From NCBI RefSeq assembly GCF_029229925.1, contig NZ_CP107254.1, positions 1,178,001 through 1,242,000 on the forward strand: a DNA stretch of 64,000 nucleotides. The letters are read 5' to 3'. The notes below the pieces were generated by a model. That model ran no database searches, was not told the DNA's origin, and worked only from the letters and a program-made list of their open reading frames with translations. The position numbers were made by a program, and so were the translations under genes. Below are positions 8,849 to 14,500 of the stretch, one piece after another. This DNA is from Halorhabdus sp. BNX81. GTDB taxonomy: Archaea > Halobacteriota > Halobacteria > Halobacteriales > Haloarculaceae. Positions within the stretch are counted from its first letter, which is position 1, and each line of letters starts with the position of its first letter.

Positions 8849-8894
8849 GGATATCTCTCGCTCACGTCCGTTCGCGAGAAGATAGTCCCGGGCG
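8849..8894. repeat. 46-bp direct repeat, copy 1
   Basis: Starts GGATATCTCTCGCTCACGTC and ends with AGTCCCGGGCG. It matches 9006-9051 with one mismatch (position 8880 versus 9037), an offset of 157 bp. The last 11 bases equal the terminal bases of the tRNA-Gln gene. Confidence 0.9.
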
Positions 8895-9005
8895 TCCTCG
8901 TGAACGAAGTGAACGAGGGCTCGGAAGACGAGCAAAGCGAGTCTTCCGGCGGATTCGAACCGCGAGGACTCGCATCCGCTCGTCCTCTGGATACGAACCG
9001 CCTTG

Positions 9006-9051
9006 GGATATCTCTCGCTCACGTCCGTTCGCGAGACGATAGTCCCGGGCG
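9006..9051. repeat. 46-bp direct repeat, copy 2
   Basis: Second copy of the 8849-8894 sequence with one difference. Here the shared end runs on into a 30-bp duplicate of the tRNA-Gln 3' end (9039-9068), so the two repeat families are joined at AGTCCCGGGCG. Confidence 0.9.
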
Positions 9052-9068
9052 GATTCGAACCGCCGTCA
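9039..9068 (-). repeat. partial duplicate of the tRNA-Gln 3' end (att-like)
   Basis: Thirty bases identical to 9150-9179, which cover the acceptor 3' strand and the T arm of the tRNA gene. The copy stops at the variable region, so it is not a functional tRNA. A shorter related T-arm piece (GGCGGATTCGAACCGC) lies at 8948-8963. Integrases often leave such duplicates at tRNA 3' ends. Confidence 0.85.
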
Positions 9069-9118
9069 CTCCACTCGCTATCGCTCGTTTCGTTCCCAGC
9101 TTCGAATCCGCTGGACGT

Positions 9119-9150
9119 ATTTGCCGCTCGCGAACTTGCTCGCGGCAAAA
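9119..9150 (-). terminator. hairpin after tRNA-Gln
   Basis: Directly after the tRNA 3' end on the minus strand comes TTTT. An inverted repeat TTTGCCGC (9120-9127) and GCGGCAAA (9142-9149) then gives an 8-bp stem. The T run and stem could end transcription of the tRNA. Confidence 0.45.
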
Positions 9151-9223
9151 TAGTCCCGGGCGGATTCGAACCGCCGTCAGAGGCTCCAAAGGCCTCTATG
9201 ATTGGCCACTACACCACGGGACT
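9151..9223 (-). tRNA. tRNA-Gln (anticodon UUG)
   Basis: Seventy-three nt including an A discriminator; CCA is not encoded. The acceptor stem AGTCCCG/CGGGACT pairs fully. The anticodon stem GAGGC/GCCTC encloses the 7-nt loop CTTTGGA with anticodon TTG. The T arm has GGTTCGAATCC and the D arm GTGTAGTGGCCAATCAT. No intron is seen. The 3' half is duplicated just downstream, which marks this gene as a past integration target. Confidence 0.93.
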
Positions 9224-10539: not shown

Positions 10540-12138
10540 TCACTCGCTTTCGAACTGGTGGAAGATCGCCGAGAACTCGCCGTTCTCATCGTCGCCGAGC
10601 ACCCATGGGGCGATGCTGTACATCCCTTTCTCCTCGGCGTATTCGAGCAGGTTCCGGGCGTCCTGGATCGAGAGCTCGTTGATGTTCGGCGTGACACCGA
10701 CCATTGACCAGACCTCGTCTCTGGTCGTTCCGGGATAGACGTCCCCGCTCAGGAAGTCTACAGTCGATTCCAGCGCCGGCGGGATGTCCGCAAAGCTGCT
10801 GACGAAGTTCATCGTCATCGGCTGGACGTAATCGAGATCGACCCCTTTCTCGGCGGCGTCTTTGACCCAGGTCTTGCCGTGGGAGTGGCCGTGGCTGACG
10901 ATACCGTCCGCGGTACACGAGACGGTGAAGCCAACCGTGAGGTCCGGCCGCTCGTCGTTGAGCATCGCCAGGGCTTCGTTGCGCATCTCGTAGACCGTCC
11001 GATCGCGCTGGTCGGCGTTCTCGTCGTCGATGTCGAGATGGTTGATCCCGAACGTATCCAGGATGGTCGCGTAGGCCTCCTTGAGTTCGGTGGCGTCGCT
11101 CGCGTCGCGTGCGACGACCGGGCTGTGCCAGCCGCCGATCGAGATCCCGACTTCGATGCCCTCGTCTTGCAGTGTCCGGATCGCATCGGCCTGTGCCGAG
11201 AGGGGACTCTCGTCACAGGACCCGGCGTTACAGCCCGACAGCCAGCCGGGATCGATCTCGCCGTCGCGCGTGGCGTCACCCACGAACGAGAGAATGACGC
11301 GGTCGGTATCCGTTTCCAGTGTGTCCTCGACGACATCGTACCACGTGCCCTGGTAGGGTGAGTAGATCCCGCCGTCGATCGGGGACGACATTGTTCCGAC
11401 CGAGATCGTTTTCGTCGTCGAGTCGGTGTTCCCATCCGCGTCCGTGACTGTCAGGGCGACGCTGTATCGCCCCGCCTCGGAGACGGTGTGCTCGGGCGTC
11501 TCCCCCCAGTCCATCGGCTCCCCGTCCAGGGTCCACTCGTAGGTGTCCCAGTTCTCCGATGCGGTCATGTCCATCCGGACGGTCTCGCCCGGATCGAGCC
11601 TCCTCGAGGAAACGCGAAAGCTGGCGTCCGGCATCGGCGTACAGGAACCGACTGCCTCCCACGGCCCCCACTCCGAACTCCCCGGTTCGTCACCCCGGGT
11701 CCACCACTCGGCTTCCCAGAGCGATCCCTCGTAGACGGTCCGATCGCCATCCGTGTAGGTTGCCTCGGCGTCCCATTCGACGACGCCGCGACAGTCGGCC
11801 CCCTTTCCGGCGTCGCTATCGTCGACGTCATCCTCCTCGTCACCGTTGTTTCCACCGCCATCGTCATCCCCAGTATCGCCACCGTCATCGCCGCTGCAGA
11901 CACCGACTTCCGCCCAGGGCCCCCACTCGTCGGCCCCGGGTTCGTCACCCCGAGTCCACCACTCGGCCTCCCAGAGTGATCCGTCGTCGACGACCTGATC
12001 GCCGCTCGTGTAGGTTCCATTTGATTTCCACTCGGCGACACCGTCGCAGTCCGCCGCCGCTGAAACGCCGCTCGCGCCGATGACCGCTGCTCCCAGTGCC
12101 GATGCTTTCCGCAGTACGTCACGTCGTGTGTGTTTCAT
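10540..12138 (-). CDS. secreted GH18 chitinase with two chitin-binding modules and a PKD domain
   Basis: A 532-residue exported enzyme. A Tat signal (KHTRRDVLRKASALGAAVIG) is followed by a chitin-binding CBM5/12 module near residues 33-75, an Asp/Gly-rich linker, a second CBM5/12, a PKD domain and a GH18 barrel of about 270 residues. Barrel motifs are GISIGGWHSP and NHLDIDDENA, the latter carrying the catalytic Glu. The first Asp of the usual DxxDxDxE is replaced, as in the DFDIE-type GH18 subgroup. The ATG at 12138 puts the twin arginines at the N-terminus; an upstream frame to 12318 is rejected. It follows another chitinase gene by 110 nt. Confidence 0.88.
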   Translation of the reverse strand: MKHTRRDVLRKASALGAAVIGASGVSAAADCDGVAEWKSNGTYTSGDQVVDDGSLWEAEWWTRGDEPGADEWGPWAEVGVCSGDDGGDTGDDDGGGNNGDEEDDVDDSDAGKGADCRGVVEWDAEATYTDGDRTVYEGSLWEAEWWTRGDEPGSSEWGPWEAVGSCTPMPDASFRVSSRRLDPGETVRMDMTASENWDTYEWTLDGEPMDWGETPEHTVSEAGRYSVALTVTDADGNTDSTTKTISVGTMSSPIDGGIYSPYQGTWYDVVEDTLETDTDRVILSFVGDATRDGEIDPGWLSGCNAGSCDESPLSAQADAIRTLQDEGIEVGISIGGWHSPVVARDASDATELKEAYATILDTFGINHLDIDDENADQRDRTVYEMRNEALAMLNDERPDLTVGFTVSCTADGIVSHGHSHGKTWVKDAAEKGVDLDYVQPMTMNFVSSFADIPPALESTVDFLSGDVYPGTTRDEVWSMVGVTPNINELSIQDARNLLEYAEEKGMYSIAPWVLGDDENGEFSAIFHQFESE

Positions 12139-12248
12139 TGCTGTGTTCGTATCCGTCGTTCGTCGGGTGATACCCCCACGTCCCGTCGAGAGTCGAGTTC
12201 CATCGCAGTCGCCGGCATGTCCCGGTCGATCGCGGAGCGACAGCCGGA

Positions 12249-14213
12249 CTAGCCGTTGAGGGTATCCCAGAGCGTGGTGATGAGCGTCCCCTCTTTCGTG
12301 TCGCCGCCGATCGCCCACAGCATCGTTCCGCCGTAGGGCGAGCTAGCCAGCCACTGCATCTTTGCCTCGATCGAGCGCTCGGTCGGATGGGAGATCATCA
12401 TGCCTTCGCTCGGATTGTAGCTGTACGAACAGACGGCTTGGTCGTCGAAGTACGTCTCCCAGGCGGCGCTGTCGAGATCGATCGGATTCGACCCGATGCG
12501 ACCGTCGCTGGTCTCACGACCGTCGCCCCCGAGGTCGAAGTACTCCCAGACGCCACTCACGTCGGTCCCCCGCGGATACGACCCGTCGCCGCTCGCGTCG
12601 GCCCCGTCGCCCAGATACTGCTGGAACAACCCGTCGTCGACGCCGTTCCCGAAGTCACCCTCTGGCGGCTGGACGTCGGTCCAGCTACGGCCGTAGAACG
12701 GGACGGCCATGTTGAGTTGTGCCGGTTCCCAGCCCTGTTGTTCGTAGAACGACAGTGCGTAGGAGGCGTTCCACTCCGGGCCCGTCTCCAGTGGGTCGTT
12801 GGGGTTCGCCTTCAACGGGGCGTGGTGGCCGGTCGTCTCGCTGAAGATCCCCCGGTAGTCGAAGGTCATCACGTTGACGAAGTCCAGAAGATCACTGAGG
12901 CGACCGTGTTCGAGACCCCGAACCGTCTCGGGCGCGGGACTCATCGCCGCCGTCAATTCGTACGGTTCCGAGCGGTCCGGATTCGCTTCCGCGGCGGCGT
13001 CGAGCTGATCGCGAACCTCCTCCATGAGGAGTGTGAATCGTTCCTGGTCGCCCGCACGAACCGTGTTCCCCTCCTCGCCGCCACCGCCGGGGAACTCCCA
13101 GTCGACGTCGACGCCGTCAATGTCGTTGTTCTCGACGAGGTCGACGCAATCGCTGGCGAACTGTTCGCGACTTCCCTGGTCGAGTGCGGCGTCAGAGAAG
13201 TGTTCGGAATCTCCCCACCCCCCGATGGAGAGGACGAACGAGACGTCGTCCCGTTCGGCAGCGTAGCCGGCGAATGACTTGCCGCGATCGGGCTGTTGCC
13301 AGTCTTTCTCGGCCGAGAAGACGTTCCGGGCGTAACTGTCCCCCACGAGCGTGACTGACCCGTCCGATTCCGGCCGGGCGAACGCGTACTGGAGATGCGT
13401 GACGCGATCGAAGTCGATGTCGGCCGGGAGGTAGTTCCGGTCGAACTGCGCCCACTGGCGGTAGTATGCGACGACGCGTTGCTCGTCTGTACTGGGACGA
13501 CCCGCGGTGATCGTGATCGAATCCGTGTCGGCGTTTCCAGCGCCGTCGCTCACTGTCAACGTGACCTCGTGTTGCCCCTGGGAAAACGACAGCGTGTGTT
13601 CGACGCCGGAGGCCGTCCCGACTCCCTCGATTTCCCACTCGGAGGAATCGACGTTCCCCGTCGATTCGGACCCGTCGAGTGTCACTTCCTCCCCGACGTC
13701 CGGGAACTGGGTCGAAACGTCGACGACGGCCTCGAGTTCGCTCGATCCGCCGTCCTCGCCGTCACCCGCTTGCACGGCCCGGATTTCCGTCCACGGCCCC
13801 CACTCGTCGGCCCCTGGTTCGTCACCCCGAGTCCACCACTCGGCTTCCCAGACGTATCCCGCGTGGGTAACTCGATCGCCGCTCGTATACGTCCTACTCG
13901 CCTCCCAGGAGGGGTACTCGGAATCCCCCTCTCCAGTGTCTCCGCTGTCGTCGGCACCGTCCCCGTCGTCGCCGGTTCCGTCACTCCCATCGACTGACTC
14001 GATCCGCTCCCAGACGGCAGCGTTTTCGGCCGGTTCACGGCCGCGCGTCCACCACTGGGCTTCCCAGATGTTACCGTTATGGACGACCCGGTCACCCCCC
14101 GAATAGGTGGTTTCCGGTTCCCACTCTGACGGATTCCCTTCTGCCGATGCGACCGAAACGCCGGCGAGGCCGGCCAGTGCCGAAAGCGATCGTAAGTAGT
14201 CACGTCGTTTCAT
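12249..14213 (-). CDS. secreted GH18 chitinase with two chitin-binding modules and a PKD domain
   Basis: A 654-residue exported endochitinase. Order: Tat signal (KRRDYLRSLSALAGLAGVSV), CBM5/12 near residues 27-75, acidic Gly/Asp linker, second CBM5/12, PKD (VGEEVTLDGSESTG, HEVTLTVSDGAGN), and a GH18 barrel of about 390 residues. The barrel has VLSIGGWG and the complete catalytic DGVDVDWEFPG. Later MTFDYRG and the closing GGTMLWAIGGD fit family 18. Surface Trp pairs in WEAEWWTRGDEP bind chitin. ATG 14213 is chosen for the signal peptide. It probably works together with the downstream chitinase, which belongs to a different GH18 subgroup. Confidence 0.92.
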   Translation of the reverse strand: MKRRDYLRSLSALAGLAGVSVASAEGNPSEWEPETTYSGGDRVVHNGNIWEAQWWTRGREPAENAAVWERIESVDGSDGTGDDGDGADDSGDTGEGDSEYPSWEASRTYTSGDRVTHAGYVWEAEWWTRGDEPGADEWGPWTEIRAVQAGDGEDGGSSELEAVVDVSTQFPDVGEEVTLDGSESTGNVDSSEWEIEGVGTASGVEHTLSFSQGQHEVTLTVSDGAGNADTDSITITAGRPSTDEQRVVAYYRQWAQFDRNYLPADIDFDRVTHLQYAFARPESDGSVTLVGDSYARNVFSAEKDWQQPDRGKSFAGYAAERDDVSFVLSIGGWGDSEHFSDAALDQGSREQFASDCVDLVENNDIDGVDVDWEFPGGGGEEGNTVRAGDQERFTLLMEEVRDQLDAAAEANPDRSEPYELTAAMSPAPETVRGLEHGRLSDLLDFVNVMTFDYRGIFSETTGHHAPLKANPNDPLETGPEWNASYALSFYEQQGWEPAQLNMAVPFYGRSWTDVQPPEGDFGNGVDDGLFQQYLGDGADASGDGSYPRGTDVSGVWEYFDLGGDGRETSDGRIGSNPIDLDSAAWETYFDDQAVCSYSYNPSEGMMISHPTERSIEAKMQWLASSPYGGTMLWAIGGDTKEGTLITTLWDTLNG

Positions 14214-14500
14214 GGTTGCCAGCGGTGAGAAGTAACGACTGTACCCGGTCACCGGTAGCGACAATGTATCGGATAGTAGCCCCCCATCCCGCGCTGGCCC
14301 CCGGCGTCGTTCTCCCCGCCGCTATGACAATTGAAAATCCATATTCACTAAACTTTATCGGAATGGTATACGACCTCGGGGTGTGCTAGTTGATAGACGT
14401 CACGCGGCGTCACGATTACAGCACGTGGCTAATAGACAAACCAATGGCCGAATACGACAGGACGGGAGTTCGGTCGGGAATCGTGCGTGGGGCGAAAGAC
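14214..14500. other. intergenic region upstream of the chitinase genes
   Basis: 287 bp without a supported gene. A/T-rich patches at 14330-14370 (including CTAAACTTTATC) may hold promoter or operator sites for the minus-strand chitinases. No clear TATA is found at the usual distance from 14213. Confidence 0.4.

Follow-up and report, generated by a model that had tools for sequence, protein, structure and literature searches.

What do the copies of a tRNA 3' end that lie behind the tRNA-Gln(TTG) gene of a haloarchaeal genome record? An earlier note on the window, by which we mean the whole 64,000-nucleotide stretch of DNA analysed, took them for the marks of a single integrative element that had entered at the tRNA and since departed. 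On balance, we take the region to be a short array of hairpin cassettes, non-coding and probably inserted in a polar manner at tRNA 3' ends by a site-specific recombinase, and the Gln 'scar' to be a single instance of a system that is widespread and, it appears, not yet described.

The array behind tRNA-Gln

The 30 bases at 9150-9179 recur identically at 9039-9068, and the 16-nt T-arm piece at 8948-8963 is an exact copy, as the earlier note had observed. Within the 800-nt Gln region, exact direct repeats reach 31 nt, as against at most 13 nt in 300 shuffles. The note's 46-nt repeat (8849-8894 and 9006-9051) is present, with 45 of 46 bases identical and one A/C difference, and it does meet the copy of the tRNA tail; however, it is not the separate repeat described there, but consists of the first hairpins of units 2 and 3 together with the last bases of the tail copy before each. 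Two parts had been missed: an inverted copy of the T-loop at 9100-9109, and the resumption of the tail copy of 8948-8963 at 8883-8890, past a 57-nt cluster.

These parts make up cassettes, or units, of about 100-190 nt with the order H1-x'-S-x. H1, which starts at the tRNA 3' end, is an imperfect palindrome. The closing part, x, repeats the host tRNA directly, beginning in the T-stem/T-loop and running through the final base. Pairing of x with its inverted partner x' turns x'Sx into a single long hairpin around a core, S, of which there are several types. Read on the tRNA strand, the Gln array comprises the tRNA, H1, x', S and x, then a damaged second unit and a third H1 (Table 1). Unit 1 is about 110 nt long, its 30-nt identity with the tRNA reaches upstream of the T-loop, and its predicted fold lies 5 sd below shuffles. 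The S type of unit 2 also occurs behind the tRNA-Gln of other haloarchaea. In an Rfam search of the locus, the tRNA was the sole model to pass, and a tmRNA match scored 19 bits against a cut-off of 47.

Table 1 Parts of the tRNA-Gln(TTG) locus, in window coordinates
Feature	Position	Strand	Basis or remark
tRNA-Gln(TTG), insertion site	9151..9223	-	ARAGORN; Rfam RF00005, 61 bits
Unit 1, hairpin H1 (TTTTGCCGCGAGCAAGTTCGCGAGCGGCAAATACGTCCAGC), directly 3' of tRNA-Gln	9110..9150	-	Stem in the predicted fold, with tandem G.A mismatches
Unit 1, x', inverted copy of T-loop/T-stem 3' strand (GGATTCGAAG)	9100..9109	-	Predicted to base-pair with x
Unit 1, hairpin core S, type GGGAACG...TGACGGCG	9061..9099	-	R1 match 9051-9109, E=0.0011 within the window
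Unit 1, x, tRNA tail repeated directly over 21 nt, from GTTC to the 3' end	9040..9060	-	Sequence comparison
Unit 2, hairpin H1, part of the 46-nt repeat	9005..9039	-	Sequence comparison
Unit 2, degenerate x' (8991-9000) and core S (CCAGAGGACGAG..GAGTCCTCGCG)	8961..9000	-	S at 8990-8961
Unit 2, tail copy, first part (GTTCGAATCCGCC)	8948..8960	-	Sequence comparison
Nested cluster of two hairpins interrupting the unit 2 tail copy (57 nt)	8891..8947	-	
Unit 2, tail copy, remainder (CGGGACTA)	8883..8890	-	Sequence comparison
Third H1 hairpin, end of array, adjoining the downstream ORF	8849..8882	-	Sequence comparison

The nested cluster at 8891-8947 belongs to a second class of hairpins (GGAAGA..TCTTCC, GCCCTCGTTCAC..GTTCACGAGGAC) with the opposite strand bias, which was also seen at loci L183, L036 and L299. 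The cluster likewise splits tail copies at the tRNA-Gln of congener G006 and near tRNA-Val(TAC) and tRNA-Val(GAC). It sits within tail copies at the T-stem and was never seen inside a real tRNA. Elsewhere in the window, two adjacent minus-strand genes for family-18 (chitinase-like) glycosyl hydrolases with carbohydrate-binding and PKD domains (10540-12318 and 12249-14264) adjoin a DtxR-like regulator.

Structure and distribution of the units

We parsed 85 units, 73 of them from three congeners. Similarity between tail copy and tRNA rises above chance from about position 50, stands at 91-100% identity between position 53 and the final bases of the tRNA, and is near chance beyond; the duplicated tail is 21-24 nt long, running from about positions 50-53 to the 3' end. 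The inverted arm also follows the local tRNA: its T-loop 8-mer matches the host tRNA exactly in 48 of the 85 units (permutation mean 24, maximum 35), and its pairing extends into the T-stem by a mean of 1.47 nt (permutation maximum 0.73).

To look for compensatory change we aligned 24 hairpins sharing an S type; 95.6% of cells pair, a value that falls to 54% or less when the partner is slid by one column. Both sides have changed at 8 of 17 pairs, in 37 cells as against 10.8 in shuffles (0/500). A tandem-GA hairpin motif occurs on the sense strand of 72 of 85 units and on the antisense strand of 4, and x':x pairs include 40 of G.T versus 9 of A.C. The hairpin structure belongs to the tRNA-sense strand; such strand-specific structure fits RNA and single-stranded DNA alike.

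The same layout recurs across the source genome (G000), a 2.83-Mb single haloarchaeal contig in which 41 tRNA genes were scanned. For more than half of these, the gene's own 3' end recurs 70-200 nt further down the same strand. With at least 18 of 22 bases matching at no more than 300 nt from the tRNA gene, such copies lie downstream of 23 of 41 tRNA genes here and of 15 of 42 and 18 of 38 in two congeners, and the same criterion found none upstream of tRNA genes in the three congeners. At 23 loci in the source genome the tRNA's own tail outscores the tails of all other tRNAs. That so many tRNA genes share this arrangement, each with its own tail, is at odds with the idea of one element that came and went.

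For a wider survey we used R1, a covariance model of one S type built from the three congeners and applied with strict filters, which misses other S types. R1 has matches in 189 of 194 Halobacteria genomes (97%) and in 62 of 65 genera; in other classes of the phylum it matched 0 of 119 genomes, a zero that is valid for the R1 model only. In the source genome, 33 of the 37 matches share the strand of a listed tRNA and lie at most 600 nt behind it, and a 34th adjoins tRNA-Pro(CGG), which was missing from the first tRNA list. The remaining three are an antisense duplicate, an overlap with a tRNA end and a weak match in a displaced array. The class and phylum searches supplied 35 loci for inspection: at 33 a tRNA is predicted immediately before the match, one match lies behind a putative intron-bearing tRNA-Trp read by eye, and one behind a tRNA-Gly tail that an 8-kb insert has moved away. 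The cassettes occur only at tRNA 3' ends, and our sampling places them in no class other than the Halobacteria. Another repeat, a CCTTTTTACTTCG..GGG hairpin CCCTCCTTGCAAAAAGCTGGACCAAAAAC, was seen at the ends of several tRNA arrays (L017, L040, L051, L019 and L225).

Gain, loss and possible mechanism

The number of units varies between relatives, which carry 0, 1, 2 or more, and the absence of such length variation is what the earlier note had said would favour a simple local duplication. At the syntenic tRNA-Gln beside a DtxR-family gene there are no units in Halorientalis, Halococcus and Halosimplex, one in Halomicrobium katesii, Haloarcula salina and Haloferax denitrificans, and two in a Natronomonas metagenome-assembled genome. 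Two further Gln loci show arrays of other kinds: in G019 (L145) a tandem array with a 69-nt period and no H1, partly masked by N, and in Natronomonas sp. LN261 (L118) exact tandem units whose tail no longer equals the tRNA tail.

Among the three congeners, exact filled and empty patterns were found in 27 ortholog pairs covering 18 tRNA species. Sequence that directly follows the tRNA in one genome is found behind a tail copy in the other: the additional unit starts right after the tRNA, and the former flank picks up again 0-3 nt, usually 0-1 nt, from the end of the copy. Resumed flanks are closely alike, for example over 742 nt at Asn-GTT (91%), 121 nt at Pro-TGG (99%), 151 nt at Arg-CCG (98.7%), 150 nt at Thr-GGT (97%) and 60 of 60 nt at Ile-GAT. 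At Ser-TGA, Met, Gly-GCC and Val-TAC the extra unit is proximal to the tRNA and older units are shifted downstream. Units restricted to a single congener occur both in G004 (Arg-TCT, Leu-TAA and Val-TAC) and in G006 (Thr-GGT, Gly-GCC and Ser-TGA), so that, by parsimony, at least some units are gains whichever congener serves as outgroup. Other presence/absence differences may be losses by recombination between tails; precise loss of this kind yields filled/empty pairs identical to those of gain, and some of the differences are probably losses.

H1 and S are not the same in adjacent units, nor in units behind orthologous tRNAs, and S types are common to different tRNAs and genera. For 45 of 73 units the nearest S core lies behind a different tRNA, although the tails match the local tRNA; in some cases that core is in the same genome and about 90-92% similar, as with Lys-TTT and Arg-CCG. 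Taken together, polar gain, a host-matched tail, a shared core and a co-varying single-strand hairpin suggest a recombinase that acts at the T-arm. We propose that a site-specific strand-exchange enzyme would recognize two things, the T-arm of the tRNA gene where it is intact and the x'Sx strand of a cassette in its folded form, and would insert the cassette at the tRNA 3' end, leaving the tRNA whole. Repeated insertion would build the array, and recombination between tails would remove cassettes. The polarity, by which only the tRNA end takes new units, could arise because the x copies lack the 5' strand of the T-stem. Host-matched tails might come from target duplication during insertion, or from capture only from the same tRNA species elsewhere, other captures being lethal. 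The host specificity of x' requires an extra step under the insertion model, and arm-to-arm correction or selection may keep x' matched to the local x.

The main rival, which does not exclude cassette insertion, is that the units are functional RNA. H1 and x'Sx would be a structured trailer co-transcribed with the tRNA, acting in 3' processing, termination or folding control; for x', both x and the T-arm of the tRNA itself are possible pairing partners. No mobility enzyme would be needed, since arrays would change through tandem duplication, deletion and gene conversion. Strand-specific, compensated and class-wide structure also fits such a role: units are always on the tRNA strand, their tandem-GA hairpins and G.T bias follow that strand, and the stability of the unit 1 fold points the same way. 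Yet about half of tRNA genes have no units, the set varies between congeners and the Gln loci of many haloarchaea are unit-free, so units are not required for tRNA maturation; rapid turnover argues against an essential role, cores move between tRNAs and no Rfam family matches. We therefore consider the trailer rather unlikely as an alternative to insertion, and the cassettes, if transcribed, may also serve the tRNA.

Purely local duplication, in which replication slipped or switched templates at hairpins and so copied the tRNA tail, with concerted evolution thereafter, seems to us improbable. Hairpins do promote slippage, the units of Natronomonas LN261 are exact tandem copies and matching of arms is typical of palindrome correction, but tandem duplication would repeat the whole unit, including the H1 and S that differ between neighbours, and it leaves aside both the sharing of S types across tRNAs and genera and the defined tRNA positions at which the copy starts and stops. 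Least probable, in our judgement, is the scar of a large integrative element at tRNA-Gln, whose attL/attR would have remained after loss of its cargo. What the earlier note saw of it holds in part: an insertion that enters at the tRNA 3' end and duplicates its tail is borne out by the filled/empty pairs at 18 tRNA species, and genuine elements exist at tRNA-Val here (with a 21-nt att and an integrase) and at tRNA-Gly in G014. The inserted piece at those 18 species is, however, itself a hairpin unit of about 100-190 nt, found in 97% of sampled haloarchaeal genomes, and a single scar leaves the genome-wide pattern unexplained. The real elements lack H1 and x'S at their ends and sit between tRNA and array, and haloarchaeal SNJ2-type att sites measure 13-14 nt (PMC8371274).

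Known systems and candidate enzymes

We compared the units with known mobile systems. Proviruses and other elements that integrate into tRNA genes through a tyrosine integrase, such as SNJ2-type pleolipoviruses, resemble them in inserting at the tRNA 3' end, restoring the tRNA and leaving a tail copy downstream, and tandem integrations are known, as in the unit arrays. Such elements span kilobases and encode an integrase, whereas the units are 100-190 nt long and gene-free, carry an inverted T-loop copy and occupy many tRNA species per genome. Against the provirus/ICE class, the units have the tRNA 3'-end duplicate; they have no integrase gene, and their copy is 21-24 nt rather than the 13-14 nt of SNJ2-type att sites (PMC8371274, PMC7911831).

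REPINs, IS200/605-derived PATEs and SMRs are, like the units, short, non-coding, palindromic and present in many copies per genome; PATEs and SMRs have been described in Haloquadratum, without target duplication (PMC3119063). The units differ from PATEs and REPINs in being confined to tRNA 3' ends with a host-specific copy and a 21-24-nt duplication; they do not occupy dispersed sites free of target duplication, and the source genome has no Y1 transposase. CRISPR arrays and casposons also make additions beside a leader-like site with a fixed repeat that is duplicated. The casposase of A. boonei targets a tRNA 3' end and recognizes TCAAATC (PMC6614799), which matches the T-loop motif; casposons have a 14-15-bp duplication, terminal inverted repeats and a cas1 gene, whereas the units have a 21-24-nt duplication and lack such ends, and some unit-rich genomes have no Cas1.

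Integron arrays come close in organization. Each integron cassette ends in an attC, an imperfect palindrome with co-varying arms that folds as a single strand. With attI/attC arrays the units share polar insertion beside a fixed site, tandem cassettes and palindromic ends, including an attC-like folded site with co-varying arms. Polar addition is seen in 27 exact pairs, in which the older flank or array resumes past the tRNA-proximal unit or units, and some of which may be losses. The units seem to lack ORFs, and none of the PF00589 proteins is linked to them as an integron integrase would be; they differ from integrons in their fixed site, which is the tRNA T-arm, and in arms that are those of the local tRNA. 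By analogy, the cassette array appears to work like integron cassette or CRISPR spacer capture, polar and beside a fixed site, but without genes. Tentatively, we extend this to a general system of the Halobacteria that would capture non-coding structured cassettes in a polar manner, anchored at the tRNA T-arm, with attC-like single-strand recognition and free of genes and spacers, by means of an unrecognized recombinase.

We found no description of these units in an open-access library from which most subscription papers are missing, and a prior description is possible. If the cassette reading is correct, DNA just 3' of many tRNA genes in haloarchaea is subject to turnover by an uncharacterized insertion process that leaves essential genes intact, and a kind of short, gene-free, polar array is added to those known. 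It would also point to an unrecognized recombinase common to a whole archaeal class, explain 'tRNA tail' repeats otherwise taken for att scars and counsel caution in calling haloarchaeal integration sites from tRNA tail copies.

Several candidate enzymes and carriers were considered and set aside. Cas1 is missing from 39 of 59 sampled Halobacteria, including the unit-rich G038, G042, G049, G052 and G070. An IS200/605 Y1 transposase is absent from the source genome, with its about 35 unit matches, and present in the unit-free G030, G036 and G066. Tyrosine recombinases are found everywhere, and their counts fail to separate unit-free from unit-rich genomes; PF00589 proteins are present, none of them linked to units, which are too short for typical genes. 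The attP sites of known haloviruses do not fit, as att sizes differ and attP lies within coding sequence (PMC8371274, PMC7911831). Two IMG/VR scans, a weak test, gave no exact-pattern match to a viral carrier and no circular carrier was found; in plasmid and phage searches essentially the tRNA alone matched.

The earlier note was right that no integrase lies nearby: the window contains no tyrosine recombinase, and the genome has only two, at 1455041 and 2628749. The latter, which is the one we examined, is the tyrosine integrase near the right end of an integrative element of ~9.3 kb in tRNA-Val(GAC), at about 2620306-2629586 of contig C1 (ends read). At its right end this element carries a 21-nt tail copy, from G53 to the 3' end, beside a displaced unit array; it has no H1 or x'S at its ends and sits between the tRNA and that array. 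We therefore rejected the 2628749 recombinase as part of an autonomous element carrying units, since it belongs to the element that displaced the array. A tyrosine integrase that uses the same tRNA stretch thus exists in the genome, and a link between it and the units is speculation. In G014 (L300 7638-15860), an 8-kb insert occupies tRNA-Gly(TCC); its right-hand tRNA fragment begins near the anticodon region, and hairpin units lie outside the insert.
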